Below are positions 10,574 through 40,075 of a DNA stretch of 40,075 bases, in pieces. A program made the translations under genes and the position numbers. Numbering within the stretch: the stretch's first letter is position 1; the number at the start of each line of letters is the position of its first letter. Source of the DNA: an uncultured Saprospiraceae bacterium (GTDB lineage: Bacteria > Bacteroidota > Bacteroidia > Chitinophagales > Saprospiraceae); NCBI GenBank assembly GCA_937918905.1, contig CAKZSH010000072.1, forward strand, positions 1 through 40,075, given 5' to 3'. The notes beneath the pieces are model-generated. The model worked only from the letters and a program-made list of their open reading frames with translations, was not told where the DNA came from and made no database searches.

Positions 10574-11383
10574 ATGAATTCACAAAAATTAGAAGACATA
10601 ACTAAAAAAACGATTAAAGAAATAGCTTCGGTAGCTAGCTTTATCCGCAATGAATTAGAGCAAGTAAATCCCCAAGATATTGAGACCAAAAGTCTAAATA
10701 GCCTAGTTAGCTATGTCGATAAAAACGCTGAAATACAGTTGGTAAAAAAGCTCGAAAAAATTGTACCTCAAGCTACATTTTTAACAGAAGAAGAAACCAT
10801 TGCTCAACAAGAAGGAGATTATAGATGGATAATTGACCCATTGGATGGGACTACCAATTTTTTACATCAACTTCCTTTTTTTTCCATAAGTGTTGCATTG
10901 GAACATAAAGGGGAAATTATCTCTGGAGTAGTATATGAAGTCATGCGGAAAGAATGTTTTTATGCATGGAAAGATGGCGGCGCATTTTTAAATCAAAAAA
11001 AAATCACAGTCAGTAAACGAAGTCAGATAGAAGATACCTTAATCGCAACGGGGTTTCCTTATTATGATTATCGAGGTGTTGAATCTTATTTTAAAGCCTT
11101 AGAATTTTTTATAAAAAATACCAGAGGTGTTCGTAGATTTGGATCAGCTGCTTTGGATTTAGCATATGTTGCCTGTGGTCGTTTTGATGCTTATTATGAG
11201 TATAGTTTAAATGCTTGGGATGTTGCAGCAGGGGTGATTTTAGTCAAAGAAGCAGGAGGGAAATTATCGGATTTTCAAGGTGGAAATAATTATATTTTTG
11301 GTAAAGAAATGATTGCAGCAAGTCCATCTGTTTTTAAACAAACTTTAGACGTTGTAAGCAATGCATTTGATGAAAATCGGTAA
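10574..11383 (+). CDS. suhB: Inositol monophosphatase family protein
   Basis: Mg-dependent, Li-sensitive phosphatase family that hydrolyses inositol phosphates or related sugar phosphates. The 269 residues are typical. Metal-binding residues are visible: E72-E74 (TEEE), D88/D91 in DPLDGTTNF (88-96) and D216 in AWDVAAG (215-220). Substrate could also be a nucleotide such as PAP (CysQ-type); the sequence WDVAAG favours IMPase/SuhB. It starts a rightward series suhB-permease-nadD with gaps of 101 and 78 bases, possibly one transcript. Confidence 0.9.
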   Translation: MNSQKLEDITKKTIKEIASVASFIRNELEQVNPQDIETKSLNSLVSYVDKNAEIQLVKKLEKIVPQATFLTEEETIAQQEGDYRWIIDPLDGTTNFLHQLPFFSISVALEHKGEIISGVVYEVMRKECFYAWKDGGAFLNQKKITVSKRSQIEDTLIATGFPYYDYRGVESYFKALEFFIKNTRGVRRFGSAALDLAYVACGRFDAYYEYSLNAWDVAAGVILVKEAGGKLSDFQGGNNYIFGKEMIAASPSVFKQTLDVVSNAFDENR

Positions 11384-11484
11384 AACTTACTTGTTTATCG
11401 AACAAAAACACCTGTGATTCTATTTTCAAATAATAACCTAAAAAAAGTAGCTACCTTAGGGCTTGCATAAAATTATCTATTCTA

Positions 11485-12723
11485 ATGAAACTCATAGAAA
11501 ATATAAAAATTGCCCTCAACAATGTTCGATCTAATTTACTTCGAACCATTATTACTATGTTGATTATTGCGTTTGGGATTACTGCATTGGTTGGTATTTT
11601 AACTTCCATTGACAGTATGATATATTCTATGAATGATAGTTTTTCAAATATGGAAGCGAACTCTTTTCGTATCGAACCTAAGCGAGATGGAGTAAGTGGG
11701 CGACGAAGAGGAAGACAAGCAAAACGAGGAGAAATTATTGATTTCAAACAAGCGATGGAGTTTAAAAAGAAGTATGATTTTCCATCAAAAATTGCAGTCT
11801 ATTGTTGGGGAACTGGAATTGCTACAGCAAAATTTGGAAACGAAAAAACAAATCCTAATGTAATGGTTTGGGGAGTAGATGATAATTATTTAAGTGTAAA
11901 AAGCTATGATATTGCAGTAGGTAGAAATTTTTCGGAGGCAGAAGTTATTAGCGGACAGAGTAAAGCCATCATAGGAAATGATATTGTAAAAGCATTGTTT
12001 GCAGATAATCCAGATCGTGCTTTAAATAAATATATTTCCGTAGGAAATGTAAAATATAAAATTATAGGTGTATTGGATTCCAAAGGTGCTTCAATGGGAA
12101 TGAGTCAAGATCGTAGAATTTTAATTCCCCTGGTTAAAGCAAAAACCTTGTATGGACATTCTAATAAAAACTATAGTATAGCAGTAGCCCTAAGTAGCTT
12201 AGAAAGAATGGAGGATGCTATTTCTGATGCCATTGGAGTGTTTAGAAATATTAGAAAACTAAAGTTGGCTCAGGATAATGATTTTGAAATCAGAAAAAGT
12301 GATGGCTTGATTGAGGTACTAAAAGAAAATACAGCAGTCATTCGATTGTCGGCAATTGGAATTGCATTGATTACATTATTAGGCGCAGCTATCGGATTGA
12401 TGAATATCATGTTGGTATCTGTAACTGAAAGAACTAAGGAAATTGGAATTTGTAAAGCACTAGGCGCTACTCGTAAAAATATTTTGACTCAATTTTTGAC
12501 CGAGGCAGTTGTCATCTGTCAGCTTGGAGGATTGGTTGGAATAGTCTTTGGAATTTTAGCAGGTAATATTCTAACCTTTATAATTGGAGGATCATTTTTG
12601 ATTCCTTGGGCATGGATTTTATTAGGCGTAACCACCTGCTTGGTTGTAGGACTAATTTCAGGATTGTACCCTGCCTTAAAAGCTTCAAGACTCGATCCTA
12701 TTGAGTCTTTACGATATGAATAA
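11485..12723 (+). CDS. ABC transporter permease (MacB/FtsX type)
   Basis: A 412-residue protein with the MacB layout: one N-terminal membrane helix (about 18-40), a large periplasmic MacB_PCD domain (about 45-275), and the FtsX domain with three helices at the C-terminus (about 280-400). The coupling region ERTKEIGICKALGATRKNIL is visible before helix 3. Such permeases act in lipoprotein release, export of peptides or mechanotransmission. The ATPase partner is not adjacent. The Arg/Lys-rich insertion (RRRGRQAKRGEI, about 73-84) is unusual but in frame. Confidence 0.92.
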   Translation: MKLIENIKIALNNVRSNLLRTIITMLIIAFGITALVGILTSIDSMIYSMNDSFSNMEANSFRIEPKRDGVSGRRRGRQAKRGEIIDFKQAMEFKKKYDFPSKIAVYCWGTGIATAKFGNEKTNPNVMVWGVDDNYLSVKSYDIAVGRNFSEAEVISGQSKAIIGNDIVKALFADNPDRALNKYISVGNVKYKIIGVLDSKGASMGMSQDRRILIPLVKAKTLYGHSNKNYSIAVALSSLERMEDAISDAIGVFRNIRKLKLAQDNDFEIRKSDGLIEVLKENTAVIRLSAIGIALITLLGAAIGLMNIMLVSVTERTKEIGICKALGATRKNILTQFLTEAVVICQLGGLVGIVFGILAGNILTFIIGGSFLIPWAWILLGVTTCLVVGLISGLYPALKASRLDPIESLRYE

Positions 12724-26787: not shown

Positions 26788-29700
26788 TTAAACAGCACTA
26801 AGTTCTTTAATACGTTCTTTAAATAGATAAAGGGGAGTTTCTACATAGAGTTCGTTATAACGTTGGAGAGACTTCTTTTTATATATCTCTTTCTGAGTAA
26901 TTTGGTATAACCAATAATAAATGTCGGCTTGCTCGTAATTACTCGTAAAGTCTTTTACTAGTTTTTCTAAAATCTGTTGCGCCATTTCTTTTTCATCCAT
27001 TTCCAAGGCTAACTTTGAAGAAAATATTTTTGCCCTAAAAATTAAATCAGGATTCCCAAGAGGCTCAATAATTCCAAGTGCTTCATGATGAATTGCTTCT
27101 GCTTCTTCCATCTGTTTTGAAAGTAAAAGGGCTTCGCCTTTCTCAACCAAACTTTCGCCAAGGACAAGTTTGTTATTAATTAATCGAGACACCTCAATAG
27201 CCCGATCATAATATTGAATAGCTTTATCATATTCATTTCGAACCATAAAAATATCAGCTAAAGCATTGACCGCTTTGGCAATACCTTTTCGATAATTTAG
27301 TTCTTCCGAGAGTTCAAGATTTTTTTCTAAATAACCAATAGCTAAATCAAATTCACCTTCCTCGCTTCGTAATTCTCCCAACAAACCTAGAGCGATTGCA
27401 ATACCTTGTTTATCGCCCAATTCTTCGCTGATCGTCAAGTCTTCTAAGAAATGATCAGAAGCTTTTGCATAATCTCCTTTGCGTTGATACACACTTCCAA
27501 TACACCCAATAGCAATGGAGACCAATAATTTATTACCCAATTCTTCACTTAACTTTAACCCTTTTTCATAACAATCCAGCGCCTCATCATAATCCCCCTT
27601 TTCAAAATAAACAATCCCCATATTGGTGTACAACGTTGCCATACCTTGAGAGTCGTTGGTCTTTTTACAAATCTCTAATTCCCTTTGTTGCCAACGAATT
27701 GCTTCATCATAATCGCCTTGATTCATATGTGCCAATCCAAGATTAGCAACAATATTGGCTTTGGGTTTATTTGGATTTTCTTTATGGCTAAGTTGGATAC
27801 TTTTTGTAAAATAGGATTTAGCATCTTCGTAAATACCTTGACGGAAAAACAGTTTTCCTAAATTACCATACACTTTATATTTTCCAATTGTATCATCCGA
27901 AAATTCAAAGTGAGTAGCTGCCGCCTCAAGGTGAGTTCGGGCTTCTTCATAATTACCTTTGAGCGTCAATAACTCACCAAGCAAATTATGAATACGTCCA
28001 ATATAAACTTTATCATTTTGCTCTCGTACCAAGTCCATCGCCTCTTCATAAACCTTTTGGCAACGATCCCATTCTCCAATTAATTGAAGTACACTTGCTT
28101 TTTTTAACAATACTCTTACAAGTTGTTTTTTATCAGCAGTAGGCTTCCGTAAATTTTTAGCTAGTTGGGTGAAAAGTTCTAAAGCCCTCTGGTTTTGATA
28201 TTTTAAACGATTGAACTTTGCAGCTTTCAATAAATACTCATTCGTTTTGTCTTCCACTTCTGCTTGTCCAAAATGGAAAGCTAAATCTGCATATCGTTCT
28301 TCTATTTTTTCTGCATATAATTTTTCAATTGCTTCTGCAATTAAGCGATGCAAATGACGAAGGCTTGCTCGAAGCTGCATATCATACACCGCTTCTCGAA
28401 GCAAAGAGTGTTTGAAAATATATCGCAATTCATTAACCGCTCTCCAGATTTGTCCTTTCTCAGCAGTTTGAATTTGTTCTTTTAAAACTAGTGCAGAATC
28501 GCCATTTCGAGCCACAAATTCTTTTTGCACTTTCATCACTTCATTCAAAACAGGAACTTCAAATTCTCGCCCAATCACAGCAGCAGCCTTTACGGTTTCT
28601 TTTACCAAGGCTGACAACCGATCAATTCTAGCCATCAAAATAGCATTGATCGAGCTACTTAATTTGACACTATTATCTTTAATATTCCAAACGTTCCGCT
28701 TTTTTTCCAACAAATTACTTTCCGCAAAATATTCAATAATCTGTTCTGCATAGAATGGATTTCCATTCGTAGTCCGTAAAAGTAATTCCTTAAAATCCTT
28801 ACTGATGGGAGCTTGTAATTTTATTTCTGCAAAATCTTTTATAGCCTCAGGTTGGAGAATATTTAAATCCAGTTCGTAGGTTCTAAATTTTAAATTATTC
28901 AAAGTTGTTTCAGAAAAAAGATGCACCTTCTCACCATTGTCATTGTAGCGACTAGTGACCAAAACAAAGATGGGATAGCGAGTCATCTTTTTTGCAAACT
29001 CTTGTAAAAATGCAACAGAATCTTGATCGAACCAATGCGCATCTTCCAACTCCAAAACAATAGGTTGTAAACAAGCCTCGGCTACCAACAAGTTGCTCAA
29101 TGCGGCTAGCGTATTTTCATATCGACCTTTGGCATCCAATTGTTGCCATAGAGAAGAGGAACTATTAATTCCCACTTGTGCAGCGAGGATAGATTTTGTT
29201 CGAGAAAGTTCTTTTCGAATTTGATCGGCTTCAGGATGCTCTACCAATCGTTCGTCATGATAGAGTTCTAAATATATTTTTTCAAAAGCAGAAATATTTT
29301 CTCCTTCTGTTTTTTCAAAAGATTGTTCGAAATAATTCTTTAAAAAATAAATAAATGGATTGAGTGGCTTTTTCAAAATTTGATCCGCTTGGCATGTAAA
29401 CCAACTCAAGCTACCCATCTTACGCAACCGTGCACGCATCTCAAAAGACAATCGACTTTTCCCTATTCCTGCCTCTCCAAAAACAGATGCAACTCCTGCA
29501 AAGTCATTGTTAAGAATGGGTTTGGAAAACTCAATTAGGTCAGTCAGTTCTTTTTGTCGACCTACCATTTTTCCACCAAATACTTGTTGCTCTTCAATAT
29601 TTTTACCCAACAATTCATAGGTTGGAATATCTTCTTCAATTCCTTTGTATTGCACGTCGCCTTTATGTTCAAATCTAAACCCAAGGCTTCGTTGGATGGT

Positions 29701-30816
29701 TTCATCAACAAGGACTTGCTCATCCTTCGCCTTAATCATGAGTCGAGCAGCTAAGTTGACTCGATTTCCTACTGCAGCATATTGACATCTTTCCACGCCT
29801 CCTACAATACCCGTAAAAGCATCTCCTGATGTAAGTCCAATTCTATATCGTAAAGGTGTCTTACGTTTTAAATCTTGTAATTCATATTGAAGGGAATTGA
29901 CAAATTCTAAAGCTCTTTCCACATTATTTTCAAAGGCAATAGGTGCTCCAAAAAAAGCAACCAAAACACCACCTTTATCTCCAAAATCTACTTCTTTAAA
30001 ATAGCCTGAAAAGTCAATCACTTCATCCAACACTATACTTACAAAATCATCCAATGCCTGATGAGAGTCCACCCCACTAAATGAAATAAATACTGAAATC
30101 ACATTTCGAAACTCTCCACTTCCATTGTATTTTGTGACTGATTTTGGGAAAAAATTAGACACTACTTTTGATTCTAAATCAGATTGTTCGTTGACACAAA
30201 CTTCAATATCTGGAAGTGCTGTAGTTGCTGTGAAAATAAAATTTCCTTTCCCTTTGGATTCAAAGGAGGTTAAAAATGAGGGGTATTTATTTTTTAAATT
30301 TTCATTAAAAATAATTTCCTGCTCCGCAGCATGATGCTGGCAAAAGGCTGCGGCATCAATTGCCTCACCTCGAAAATAAAAAGACTTTTTTTTGTTTCCG
30401 ACTATTCCCCATTCGACATTACCTTCTCCCAATCCAATTTTTATCCCAAATTGGAAATCTCCAAATCGAGTTTTCCGAAAGCCTTTCTTTTTAAAATAAT
30501 CTCGAAGTTGTTGAGCCGTTTTTAGAAGTAGTTCAGGAGTGTCATTTTCTTCTTTTAGAAAAACAGCAGTAAAGGAATCTCCTGCAAAATAAGGGATAAA
30601 ACCGCCTTCACAATAGACAAGGTTGACGAGAGGTTCAAAGATATCATTCAAGCTAAATGAAAGTTGTTCTGCACCTTCATTTCCATGTTTCATCAACGTC
30701 TCCGTCAGAGAAGTAAAACCAGATAAATCAATAAACATGGTAAACGCATTGAAGTTACCATACTTATTGCCGGCCTTATGTTGTTGTTGAATAAAATGTG
30801 GGATAAGATTTCTCAA
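26788..30816 (-). CDS. Tandem class III cyclase / AAA ATPase / TPR protein, like soluble adenylyl cyclase
   Basis: 1342 residues, no membrane helix. First cyclase domain (about 20-200) keeps both metal aspartates, D30 (FIDLSGFT) and D80 (YFAGDSF). The second (about 238-405) lacks those aspartates (FISFSG) but supplies K281 (GDKGG), N354 and R358 (GNRVNLAARLM). So the two halves would build one active site, as in mammalian soluble adenylyl cyclase ADCY10. An ATPase follows with Walker A GEAGIGKSR (447-455) and Walker B LELEDAHW (about 587-594), then winged-helix and 8-10 TPRs (about 900-1290). Likely makes cAMP under control of the ATPase/TPR part. The ADCY10 bicarbonate-site lysine (K95) is Y76 here. 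Confidence 0.9.
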   Translation of the reverse strand: MRNLIPHFIQQQHKAGNKYGNFNAFTMFIDLSGFTSLTETLMKHGNEGAEQLSFSLNDIFEPLVNLVYCEGGFIPYFAGDSFTAVFLKEENDTPELLLKTAQQLRDYFKKKGFRKTRFGDFQFGIKIGLGEGNVEWGIVGNKKKSFYFRGEAIDAAAFCQHHAAEQEIIFNENLKNKYPSFLTSFESKGKGNFIFTATTALPDIEVCVNEQSDLESKVVSNFFPKSVTKYNGSGEFRNVISVFISFSGVDSHQALDDFVSIVLDEVIDFSGYFKEVDFGDKGGVLVAFFGAPIAFENNVERALEFVNSLQYELQDLKRKTPLRYRIGLTSGDAFTGIVGGVERCQYAAVGNRVNLAARLMIKAKDEQVLVDETIQRSLGFRFEHKGDVQYKGIEEDIPTYELLGKNIEEQQVFGGKMVGRQKELTDLIEFSKPILNNDFAGVASVFGEAGIGKSRLSFEMRARLRKMGSLSWFTCQADQILKKPLNPFIYFLKNYFEQSFEKTEGENISAFEKIYLELYHDERLVEHPEADQIRKELSRTKSILAAQVGINSSSSLWQQLDAKGRYENTLAALSNLLVAEACLQPIVLELEDAHWFDQDSVAFLQEFAKKMTRYPIFVLVTSRYNDNGEKVHLFSETTLNNLKFRTYELDLNILQPEAIKDFAEIKLQAPISKDFKELLLRTTNGNPFYAEQIIEYFAESNLLEKKRNVWNIKDNSVKLSSSINAILMARIDRLSALVKETVKAAAVIGREFEVPVLNEVMKVQKEFVARNGDSALVLKEQIQTAEKGQIWRAVNELRYIFKHSLLREAVYDMQLRASLRHLHRLIAEAIEKLYAEKIEERYADLAFHFGQAEVEDKTNEYLLKAAKFNRLKYQNQRALELFTQLAKNLRKPTADKKQLVRVLLKKASVLQLIGEWDRCQKVYEEAMDLVREQNDKVYIGRIHNLLGELLTLKGNYEEARTHLEAAATHFEFSDDTIGKYKVYGNLGKLFFRQGIYEDAKSYFTKSIQLSHKENPNKPKANIVANLGLAHMNQGDYDEAIRWQQRELEICKKTNDSQGMATLYTNMGIVYFEKGDYDEALDCYEKGLKLSEELGNKLLVSIAIGCIGSVYQRKGDYAKASDHFLEDLTISEELGDKQGIAIALGLLGELRSEEGEFDLAIGYLEKNLELSEELNYRKGIAKAVNALADIFMVRNEYDKAIQYYDRAIEVSRLINNKLVLGESLVEKGEALLLSKQMEEAEAIHHEALGIIEPLGNPDLIFRAKIFSSKLALEMDEKEMAQQILEKLVKDFTSNYEQADIYYWLYQITQKEIYKKKSLQRYNELYVETPLYLFKERIKELSAV

Positions 30817-31105: not shown

Positions 31106-31257
31106 AAATAATCTACCCAGATGACGAGGTTGTTTTTTTCTTTGAGGAAATGGAAAAATTAAGGCATACCCTGCGGTACGGCTTCATTTTTTCATGAAGT
31201 CAAAGAGAAAAAGAAGCCGTCAGGTGGGTAGATTATTTATTTCCTACTCCCTTATTA
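31106..31257. mobile_element. MITE-like palindromic element, copy A
   Basis: Perfect 14-bp terminal inverted repeats, AAATAATCTACCCA (31106-31119) and its complement (31225-31238), continue imperfectly inward to about 35 bases. The interior has nested palindromes (ACGGCTTC 31178-31185 with GAAGCCGT 31213-31220; TACC-CTGC-GGTA). A near-identical copy in reverse orientation is at 39954-40075, and similarity extends outward through the AGGGANTAGG core to about 31257. No coding capacity; a transposase would have to act in trans. Confidence 0.75.
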
Positions 31258-31420
31258 TCCGCAATTTGGATTAATTCACTAATTTCATCATATAAAAAAT
31301 ACATGCTATTCGGTATTTCCCATCGTTTATCTTTATTGTATTTTTATAGTACCAAAAATAAAATTCCCGCCTATTTTAAAAATCCCATTTATAACTAAGA
31401 TGATGATTAACAATAGGTGA

Positions 31421-31484
31421 TTTGGACTAATTTTCAGTCCAAACAATTAGATTTAACCTTCTCCAGTTGGAGAAGGTTTTTTTA
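31421..31484 (+). ncRNA. Candidate small RNA end: hairpin plus intrinsic terminator
   Basis: An 8-bp hairpin (TTTGGACT 31421-31428 with AGTCCAAA 31436-31443) is followed by a perfect terminator stem (31455-31465 with 31468-31478) and seven T (31477-31483). No plus-strand protein gene precedes it, as the cyclase gene points away. TATCTTTA (31328-31335) is a one-mismatch -7 box, suggesting a transcript of about 140 bases. Confidence 0.35.
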
Positions 31485-31561
31485 TTTGATATTGACCGCT
31501 TCCCAAATTATGAATGACCAATTTTTAAAGATTTTACTTTCAATCTTTTGTTGAAGCATTT

Positions 31562-31591
31562 AGGGAGTAGGAAATAAATAACCTACTCCCT
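31562..31591. repeat. AGGGANTAGGAAATAAATAA hairpin, copy H1
   Basis: 10-bp perfect stem (31562-31571 with 31582-31591) and the loop AAATAAATAA. Core shared with 31225-31254, 33259-33288 and 39954-39984. Confidence 0.8.
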
Positions 31592-31639
31592 TATGATAAA
31601 AAATTCATTGTAAATCATTACATTTACATATAACTAAAA

Positions 31640-31743
31640 ACATCACGCTCTAAATAAGACGGCATGACCTGCAAAGGAAAACGTCAGAAATTTTTAGAGA
31701 TACAAAATAGAGTAGTCAAGCTCCGCTTGACTACTTTTTTTTT
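31640..31743 (+). ncRNA. Candidate structured RNA ending in an intrinsic terminator, upstream of dapF
   Basis: Nested pairing on the plus strand: CTCTAAA (31648-31654) with TTTAGAG (31693-31699); inside it GACG (31658-31661) with CGTC (31682-31685); inside that CCT-GCAA-AGG (31668-31677), capped by a GNRA tetraloop. A terminator follows: AGTAGTCAAGC (31711-31721) with GCTTGACTACT (31725-31735) and nine T. It could be a free small RNA or a riboswitch-like attenuator of dapF, which starts 53 bases later. Membership of a known class such as Flavo-1 needs an Rfam search. Confidence 0.5.
31711..31743 (+). terminator. Intrinsic terminator 53 bases before dapF
   Basis: Perfect 11-bp stem, 3-base loop and a run of nine T (31735-31743). 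It rules out the longer in-frame dapF start at 31664 unless the terminator is read through. Confidence 0.9.
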
Positions 31744-31795
31744 GCAAACTCTTATTTTATTTGTTTCTTACCTTTTTCTTAAAAAACACTTATTT

Positions 31796-32578
31796 ATGAT
31801 TCCATTTTTTAAATATCAAGGCACAGGCAACGATTTTGTCATGATCGATCAACGTGATAAAAAATTTATTAAAAAAAAGGATACCGAATTGATTGCAAAA
31901 ATCTGTGATCGTAAATTTGGTATTGGTGCTGACGGATTAATCTTATTACAAAATCGCAAAGGATATGATTTCCAAATGATCTATTTCAATGCAGATGGGC
32001 GGGAGAGTTCAATGTGTGGAAATGGTGGTCGCTGTATTTCAGCTTTTGCAAAACAACTCGGCATCGTAAAATCTAAATGCCATTTCCTTGCAATTGATGG
32101 GCCACATGATGCCAATATTAAAAAGGACAATTGGGTAGAGCTAAAAATGTCGGATGTAAAAAATATTGAAATTGGAAATGATTATTTTTTGATGGATACA
32201 GGTTCTCCTCACTACATTGTCTTTGTTGAGGATATTGACGACATCAATGTTTTTGAAAATGGACAAGCTATTCGATATTCCAAACGATTTAGAAAAAAGG
32301 GAGTCAATGTTAATTTTGTTGAACCTACCAAAGAAAATATTATTGTCGCTACCTACGAAAGAGGTGTCGAAGCTGAAACGCTTTCCTGTGGAACTGGAGT
32401 AACCGCAGCTGCAATTGCTCATTATTTTAAAAATCCAAATCGTAGAAAAAAACAAAATATTCCTATTCAATCAAAAGGTGGAGAACTGGCGGTAAGATTT
32501 GAACCAAATGGTAAAGATGGAGCTTCGAATATTTGGTTATGTGGAAAAGCAGAATTGGTTTTTGAGGGAAATTTTTAG
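31796..32578 (+). CDS. dapF: Diaminopimelate epimerase
   Basis: Converts LL- to meso-diaminopimelate for lysine and peptidoglycan. 260 residues from the ATG at 31796, which gives the family N-terminus MIPFFKYQGTGNDFVMID; an upstream in-frame ATG at 31664 would add 44 unrelated residues across a terminator. The two catalytic cysteines are C74 (SSMCGNGGRC) and C198 (LSCGTGVTAAA). The last codons overlap a 37-base inverted repeat. Expression may depend on the structured RNA and terminator just upstream (inference). Confidence 0.96.
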   Translation: MIPFFKYQGTGNDFVMIDQRDKKFIKKKDTELIAKICDRKFGIGADGLILLQNRKGYDFQMIYFNADGRESSMCGNGGRCISAFAKQLGIVKSKCHFLAIDGPHDANIKKDNWVELKMSDVKNIEIGNDYFLMDTGSPHYIVFVEDIDDINVFENGQAIRYSKRFRKKGVNVNFVEPTKENIIVATYERGVEAETLSCGTGVTAAAIAHYFKNPNRRKKQNIPIQSKGGELAVRFEPNGKDGASNIWLCGKAELVFEGNF

Positions 32579-32667
32579 CCGCAGATTATCGCTGATTTTT
32601 TATGACTATCGAATAACGCAATTGAGAAAATCATAAAAAATCAGCGATAATCTGTGGCTAAAAATTT
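32569..32667. repeat. 37-bp inverted repeat overlapping the dapF stop
   Basis: Arms 32569-32605 and 32631-32667 match at 36 of 37 positions, with a 25-base loop. The left arm starts inside the last codons of dapF (stop at 32576-32578) and the right arm ends 5 bases before the TPR gene stop. Probably acts as a 3' stabilising or terminating hairpin for both convergent genes. Confidence 0.9.
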
Positions 32668-39898: not shown

Positions 39899-39953
39899 TA
39901 TTAGCTTTTCTTTTATTAAATAGTCAAATTCTTAAAAAAACAAATTTCTTTTA

Positions 39954-40075
39954 TTAAGGGACTAGGAAATATATAATCTACCCACCTGACGGCTTCTTTT
40001 TCTCTTTGAATTCATGAAAAAATGAAGCCGTACCGCAGGGTATGCCTTAATTTTTACATTTCCTCAAAGAAAAAA
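39954..40075. mobile_element. MITE-like palindromic element, copy B (cut by window end)
   Basis: Reverse-orientation copy of 31106-31257: the 122 bases seen match it with only a handful of substitutions, including the TACCC-ACCTGACGGCTTC end, the CATGAA and ACCGCAGGGT middle, and the outer AGGGACTAGG core. The second end lies beyond the window. Confidence 0.8.

Follow-up and report, generated by a model that had tools for sequence, protein, structure and literature searches.

The lysine riboswitch precedes genes of the pathway to which dapF, the gene of diaminopimelate epimerase, belongs, and has a multi-helix core far larger than the RNA element considered here. Other structured RNAs of Bacteroidetes have been described, among them Flavo-1 (RF01705), tabulated in PMC2864571 as a likely RNA that is not cis-regulatory. 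Excerpts of PMC9723704 present Rfp18, an independent intergenic small RNA of Flavobacterium psychrophilum, as required for the precise expression of protease, and in Pelagibacter, according to a passage of PMC2704228, dapF adjoins a different motif. To judge by titles and the opening parts of abstracts, the full-text literature on dapF, riboswitches and Bacteroidetes, or on small RNAs or riboswitches of Saprospiraceae, gives no description of the present element. A full-text search for small RNAs of Saprospiraceae found no paper; riboswitches do get a mention in the literature on this family, according to the same titles and abstract beginnings.

The element precedes dapF in the window, i.e., in the whole analysed stretch of 40,075 nucleotides. 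An earlier note on this DNA had left the choice between a small RNA that is free and a riboswitch controlling diaminopimelate and lysine synthesis by attenuation, and the first of these fits the data better, the second less well. In our opinion, comparison of the genomes and predicted folds point, with a probability of roughly 60%, to a free small RNA gene of about 105–115 nt restricted to one genus.

Layout and predicted fold of the element

The features of the locus are collected in Table 1. The name dapF is that of the earlier note and agrees with the protein family to which we take the product to belong.

Table 1. Features of the locus, in positions of the window
Feature	Position	Strand	Basis and remarks
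RNA1, second conserved terminator-ended element, tandem upstream	31368..31484	+	terminator stem 31455-31478
Possible -7 promoter box TACATTTA	31619..31626	+	5 of the 6 fixed bases of TAnnTTTG; inferred
Structured RNA body	31648..31699	+	fold of terminated transcripts, homologous fold in G004; by folding of 31638-31745: P1 31648-31654/31693-31699 (7 bp), P2 31658-31661/31682-31685 (4 bp), P3 31668-31670/31675-31677 (3 bp) closing the GCAA loop 31671-31674
Linker ATACAAAAT from body to terminator	31700..31708	+	kept in G004 save for a 3-nt insertion there
Intrinsic terminator (13-bp stem, 3-nt loop, nine T)	31709..31743	+	arms 31709-31721/31725-31737 (13 pairs), T run 31735-31743; homologous stems in G004 and G001
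Unconserved spacer from terminator to dapF	31744..31795	+	TACCTTTT box at 31769-31776 within it
dapF, diaminopimelate epimerase, 260 aa	31796..32578	+	open frame; relatives

The nested stems with their GCAA loop, described in the earlier note, were reproduced by folding, and the description of the terminator as perfect and followed by nine T is likewise correct. Its position before dapF stands, with a distance of 52 bases from the last T to the ATG in place of the 53 given previously. It had also been stated that there is no protein gene upstream on this strand, and in the window none is convincing for about 980 bases, the nearest upstream gene (26788-30816) lying on the minus strand; in G004, a related genome described below, a plus-strand gene does precede the element, unlike in the window. 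The GNRA cap is not conserved; in G004 the place of GCAA is taken by a 9-nt loop of non-GNRA type.

The whole element of the window has a folding z of -4.55, with one of 200 dinucleotide shuffles folding as well, and much of this value is due to the terminator. The hairpin alone gives z -2.38 in the window and -2.29 in G004, and in each case 4 of 200 dinucleotide shuffles were as good. The body is only modestly unusual by folding alone, and it is conservation that raises it above chance.

The predicted fold of the window depends on the length of the transcript. With the transcript end placed at 31745 or 31760, the mean pair probability of P1-P3 goes from 0.96 to 0.85, and it is 0.00-0.02 once the end lies at 31780 or beyond; the best fold of 31600-31800 is devoid of P1-P3, the strands of the body being paired with the spacer that leads to dapF. 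Over 31600-31780 the refolded form is predicted at -39.2 kcal/mol vs -35.3 kcal/mol for the form retaining the body. This refolding spares the terminator stem and is absent in G004, where the stems of the body keep a pair probability of 0.80-0.81 across all five transcript lengths tried. According to these models, terminated transcripts of both genomes favour the body, and among read-through transcripts only that of G004 does so.

The -7 consensus of Bacteroidota is given in an excerpt of PMC9723704 as TAnnTTTG. The G004 copy is preceded by a box similar to that of the window, TATATTTA. Of shuffled 80-base stretches, about 60% contain a box with 5 or 6 matching bases, and such boxes are only slightly more frequent before genes of the genus (36 of 51), while the exact consensus was found at 4 of the 51 genes (8%) vs 5% of shuffles; the boxes of the element match at 5 of 6 bases and are singly no better than chance. 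All four dapF copies of the genus have a box 11-19 nt before the ATG, namely TAACTTTG (6 of 6 bases) in G002 and 5 of 6 bases elsewhere, and it is suggestive only that TACCTTTT may be the -7 box of dapF itself.

According to the listing of open reading frames, a frame of 304 aa that takes in dapF is open from 31664, i.e., from within the body, so that a short peptide gene or an N-terminal extension of DapF might be considered. An indel shifts the matching frame of G004, which stops, and the frame into dapF is broken there; the window and G004 have no frame in common that runs through the element. Moreover, the dapF start ATGATTCC is common to all four copies of the genus, and translation of the element is scarcely credible.

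Copies in the genus and their conservation

The genus sample comprised the genome of the window and four other genomes, G001-G004. A complete element was found upstream of dapF in G004 (uncultured Saprospiraceae, contig CALJOK010000044.1), with a BLAST E of 8.2e-13 and 45 bits by a covariance model derived from the window sequence only. In G001 a contig breaks off at this place, leaving a homologous terminator 37 nt ahead of dapF, and the body would lie beyond the sequence available; the apparent contig end of this locus (L089, G001:C70, 2230-2359) is just upstream of dapF, inside the homologue of the element. In G002, dapF is intact (its protein is 83% identical) and has neither the element nor a terminator in the roughly 260 nt before it. 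The locus is kept in this genome, but another gene sits between dapF and a decayed upstream remnant. In the 66% complete G003, neither dapF nor the element was seen. In all three genomes carrying the element or its terminator the position is directly upstream of dapF, with spacings of 37, 52 and 134 nt.

Since the dapF DNA of G004 is closer to that of G002 (84.6% identity) than to that of the window (78.4%), the simplest view is that the ancestor of the genus had the element and that G002 lost it. Identities among four genomes, which are not a tree, make it probable that the element was already present in the ancestor of this single Saprospiraceae genus and disappeared from one or more of its members.

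Between the window and G004, local alignment of the body scored 49 vs a maximum of 21 in 200 single-base shuffles. The stretch before the body, between the two RNAs, reached 20 vs 32 in shuffles, and that from the terminator to dapF 21 vs 32. As the element was kept and its flanks were not, this comparison of sequences indicates that the element was under selection. In the block that the window and G004 have in common, just two BLAST matches have no long open frame beneath, namely the element and RNA1.

A structure-aware alignment of the two full copies, fitted to the structure of the window, retained pairing in 98.1% of 54 pair cells; 2 of the 27 pairs were changed on both sides and one was broken. 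As many as 123 of 500 shuffles were as good, and with two sequences this control is powerless. Three species preserve the terminator stem, its bases varying in step: U-A, U-G and C-G occur at one pair, and G-C is changed to A-U at another. From the window to G004, the hairpin preserves the sequence of its 3' strand, while P2 and P3 have shifted 5' strands. Of the conservation and covariation that the earlier note had made decisive for the RNA claim, the former is present in G004 and the latter has little power with two full copies. These two copies, the only full ones known beside a single fragment, share a conserved fold and a terminator outside coding sequence, with no conserved reading frame.

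RNA1 is 85% identical to its G004 counterpart over 117 nt vs 78% for dapF DNA, and its alignment between the two genomes scored 143 vs 29 in shuffles. Its folding z is -5.73. The RNA1 core, with up to 3 mismatches allowed, was matched in 2 of 296 family genomes; a tiny open frame (MINNR, then a stop) is readable in both copies, and G002 holds a decayed remnant. In addition, a decayed counterpart of the epimerase-like gene located before RNA1 in G004 was noticed in G002 (L087, G002:C25:195000-214000, about 11300-12240, minus strand), with 69% DNA identity, no open frame of 100 aa and the other gene lying between it and dapF.

Several repeats surround the locus. An imperfect palindrome of about 147 bp at 31106-31255 (predicted fold -63.4 kcal/mol) occurs at 40 or more places of the genome of the window, its own included, with 87-100% identity among the 40 scored of 274 candidates; several copies lie at contig ends, another copy is at 39952-40075, and by its sequence it looks like a MITE or REP element. 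A 25-nt inverted repeat (96%) at 31228-31252 and 31562-31586 brackets RNA1, its left arm overlapping the end of this dispersed palindrome. Another palindrome (32569-32667, 42-nt arms) overlaps the stop of dapF, extends beyond it and is found at tens of places of the genome with about 73-89% identity (40 of 120 candidates scored).

Searches in other genomes and RNA families

A search of 298 Saprospiraceae genomes, with strict filters and scoring of at most 12 first-look candidates in each genome listed, gave matches at E of 0.05 or below in at least 17 genomes: that of the window, G004 and 15 others having no body. Among the matches listed from these family genomes there is no further credible copy, and the G001 fragment was missed by the search. 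A strict pattern scan of a contig collection of 84,980 species returned 6 matches; only the G004 contig is real, and the sequence surrounding the other five contains no terminator-ended copy. The scan of viral contigs with a pattern one base longer than the window copy, which would miss the window itself, gave 0 matches, and no match to the element was found in phage and plasmid collections.

Covariance models were built from the window only (R2) and from the window and G004 (R3). Weak matches were obtained by R2 at 13 other places, the reverse-strand terminator of the window itself apart, and by R3 at 15 other places. When aligned with the two bodies in either orientation, 26 of these 28 did not outscore their 25 shuffles, and they were rejected as copies. 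Most weak matches are bare terminators, many of them at gene ends in family genomes; one more rejected candidate, L097, is a gene end. The loci L077 (30 vs 27) and L102 (25 vs 23) slightly exceed their shuffles, the true pair having 49. On the minus strand of L077 (G001:C46, about 1540-1566), 25 nt resemble the 3' half of the body and are followed by a linker and a terminator. It was rejected as a copy, its 5' half being missing and the place being an apparent gene end; judging from the alignment, the resemblance is probably due to chance and possibly marks a diverged relative.

For the region upstream of dapF, 32 loci were taken, namely the 30 best-scoring of 87 genomes with dapF and 2 added ones; 24 could be placed and scanned (20 of them from other genera), and 8 were dropped for missing the GTGNDF motif. 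The loci L051 and L089 offered only 64 and 106 upstream bases. Among the 24 loci, the body is present only in the window and G004, and in none of the 20 regions from other genera, and the 260 nt or so before dapF contain a terminator in the window, G004, G001 and L039. The earlier note had asked whether homologues sit before dapF or at random. Every known copy adjoins dapF, but all of them represent one inherited locus of a single genus, not recurrence before dapF or related genes in independent contexts, and in G002 the gene stands without the element.

The Rfam scan proposed in the earlier note brought no known class to its cut-off. No family reached its gathering score anywhere in the 40-kb window; at E up to 10, the region 31400-31900 gave 27 matches, and at E up to 1 the G004 region gave 6, all below cut-off. 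Neither Flavo-1 nor the lysine riboswitch was among the 27, which agrees with the remark that the element was not recognised as the lysine riboswitch and speaks against the suggested identity with Flavo-1. The ribosomal protein L10 leader (RF00557, gathering score 44) weakly spans the element, with 15.1 bits and E 4.8 in the window and 21.2 bits and E 0.37 in G004. This identity was rejected, as the scores are below the gathering score, the model matches RNA1 too in both the window and G004, and the downstream gene is dapF, not that of a ribosomal protein; the match is taken as a chance one on a terminator and A-rich sequence.

Alternative readings and comparison with known systems

The position of the element directly before dapF in three genomes is what would be expected of a cis-acting leader, in which the sensing of a signal would fall to the hairpin and the attenuation of dapF transcription to the terminator, as a riboswitch or a protein-bound attenuator would do. 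The body lying just ahead of the terminator, the conserved linker and the refolding of the read-through transcript in the window are also in favour of such a leader. However, the three placements are not independent, the spacer to dapF is unconserved and free in length, dapF of G002 is intact having neither the element nor a nearby terminator, and the body is missing before dapF in other genera. Besides, a leader controlling dapF should be able to undo the terminator by another pairing, and the two full copies (n=2) have none with a terminator arm in common: the best pairing with the 5' arm is -8.1 kcal/mol in the window vs -2.9 in G004, and that with the 3' arm -5.1 vs -9.1 kcal/mol, and the terminators themselves (-16.9 in the window and -12.8 kcal/mol in G004) are stronger than all alternative arm pairings. 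The refolding leaves the window terminator intact and does not take place in G004. A cis leader seems rather unlikely to us. Its bolder version, in which RNA1 and the element are tandem regulated terminators before dapF that sense lysine or diaminopimelate, act by read-through refolding and form a new leader class restricted to the genus, is highly improbable.

An ordinary terminator with an incidental hairpin, which stops read-through from upstream (from RNA1 or, in G004, from the epimerase-like gene) and insulates dapF, is also doubtful. Intrinsic terminators are common in these genomes, and the folding of the hairpin alone, at z about -2.4, would allow it to be incidental; nevertheless, some 170 nt before the body there is already the good terminator of RNA1, and the body is kept in G004 well beyond shuffles, its flanks being not.

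Because there is no shared antiterminator, and the refolding spares the terminator and is absent in G004, an independent trans-acting small RNA is favoured. Its transcript would start at a promoter of its own just upstream of 31640, fold into a three-tier hairpin and, as suggested by the sequence and the predicted fold, end with the intrinsic terminator, at 31743. If flavobacterial small RNAs, as they are presented in excerpts of PMC9723704, are a guide, such an RNA would most likely act in trans by conserved unpaired stretches pairing with target mRNAs, the candidate stretches being CACG before P1, AGAAATT inside P1 and ATACAAAA after P1. As for targets, the body pairs beyond shuffles with neither the start region of dapF nor RNA1. 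The adjacency to dapF would then probably reflect inheritance of the locus, dapF having a promoter of its own past the terminator. Among the points against the small RNA are the small number of copies and the promoter boxes, which singly do not exceed chance. In addition, every known copy lies beside dapF, as a cis role would also predict, and the displacement of the window body in read-through could be read as a switch.

If transcribed, the element adds one unnamed small RNA, and RNA1 probably a second one, to those of Saprospiraceae. Together they make up a concrete pair of loci for tests of RNA regulation in Bacteroidota, and no new mechanism is indicated.

Compared with known systems, the element resembles the lysine riboswitch in its placement before a gene of the same pathway and differs from it in the smaller core and in having no Rfam match to it. 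It shares with the L10 leader a weak match over the element in both species and differs in the score, which is below 44, and in the downstream gene. Flavo-1 is likewise a small structured RNA of Bacteroidetes, and its covariance model does not match the element at E 10. The small RNAs of the Rfp18 type from flavobacteria, which are likened here by their description in excerpts of the source, not by sequence, were seen by RNA-seq, whereas the element is known from sequence alone; like the element in our reading, they are freestanding, likely structured, conserved at the level of a genus and belong to the same phylum.
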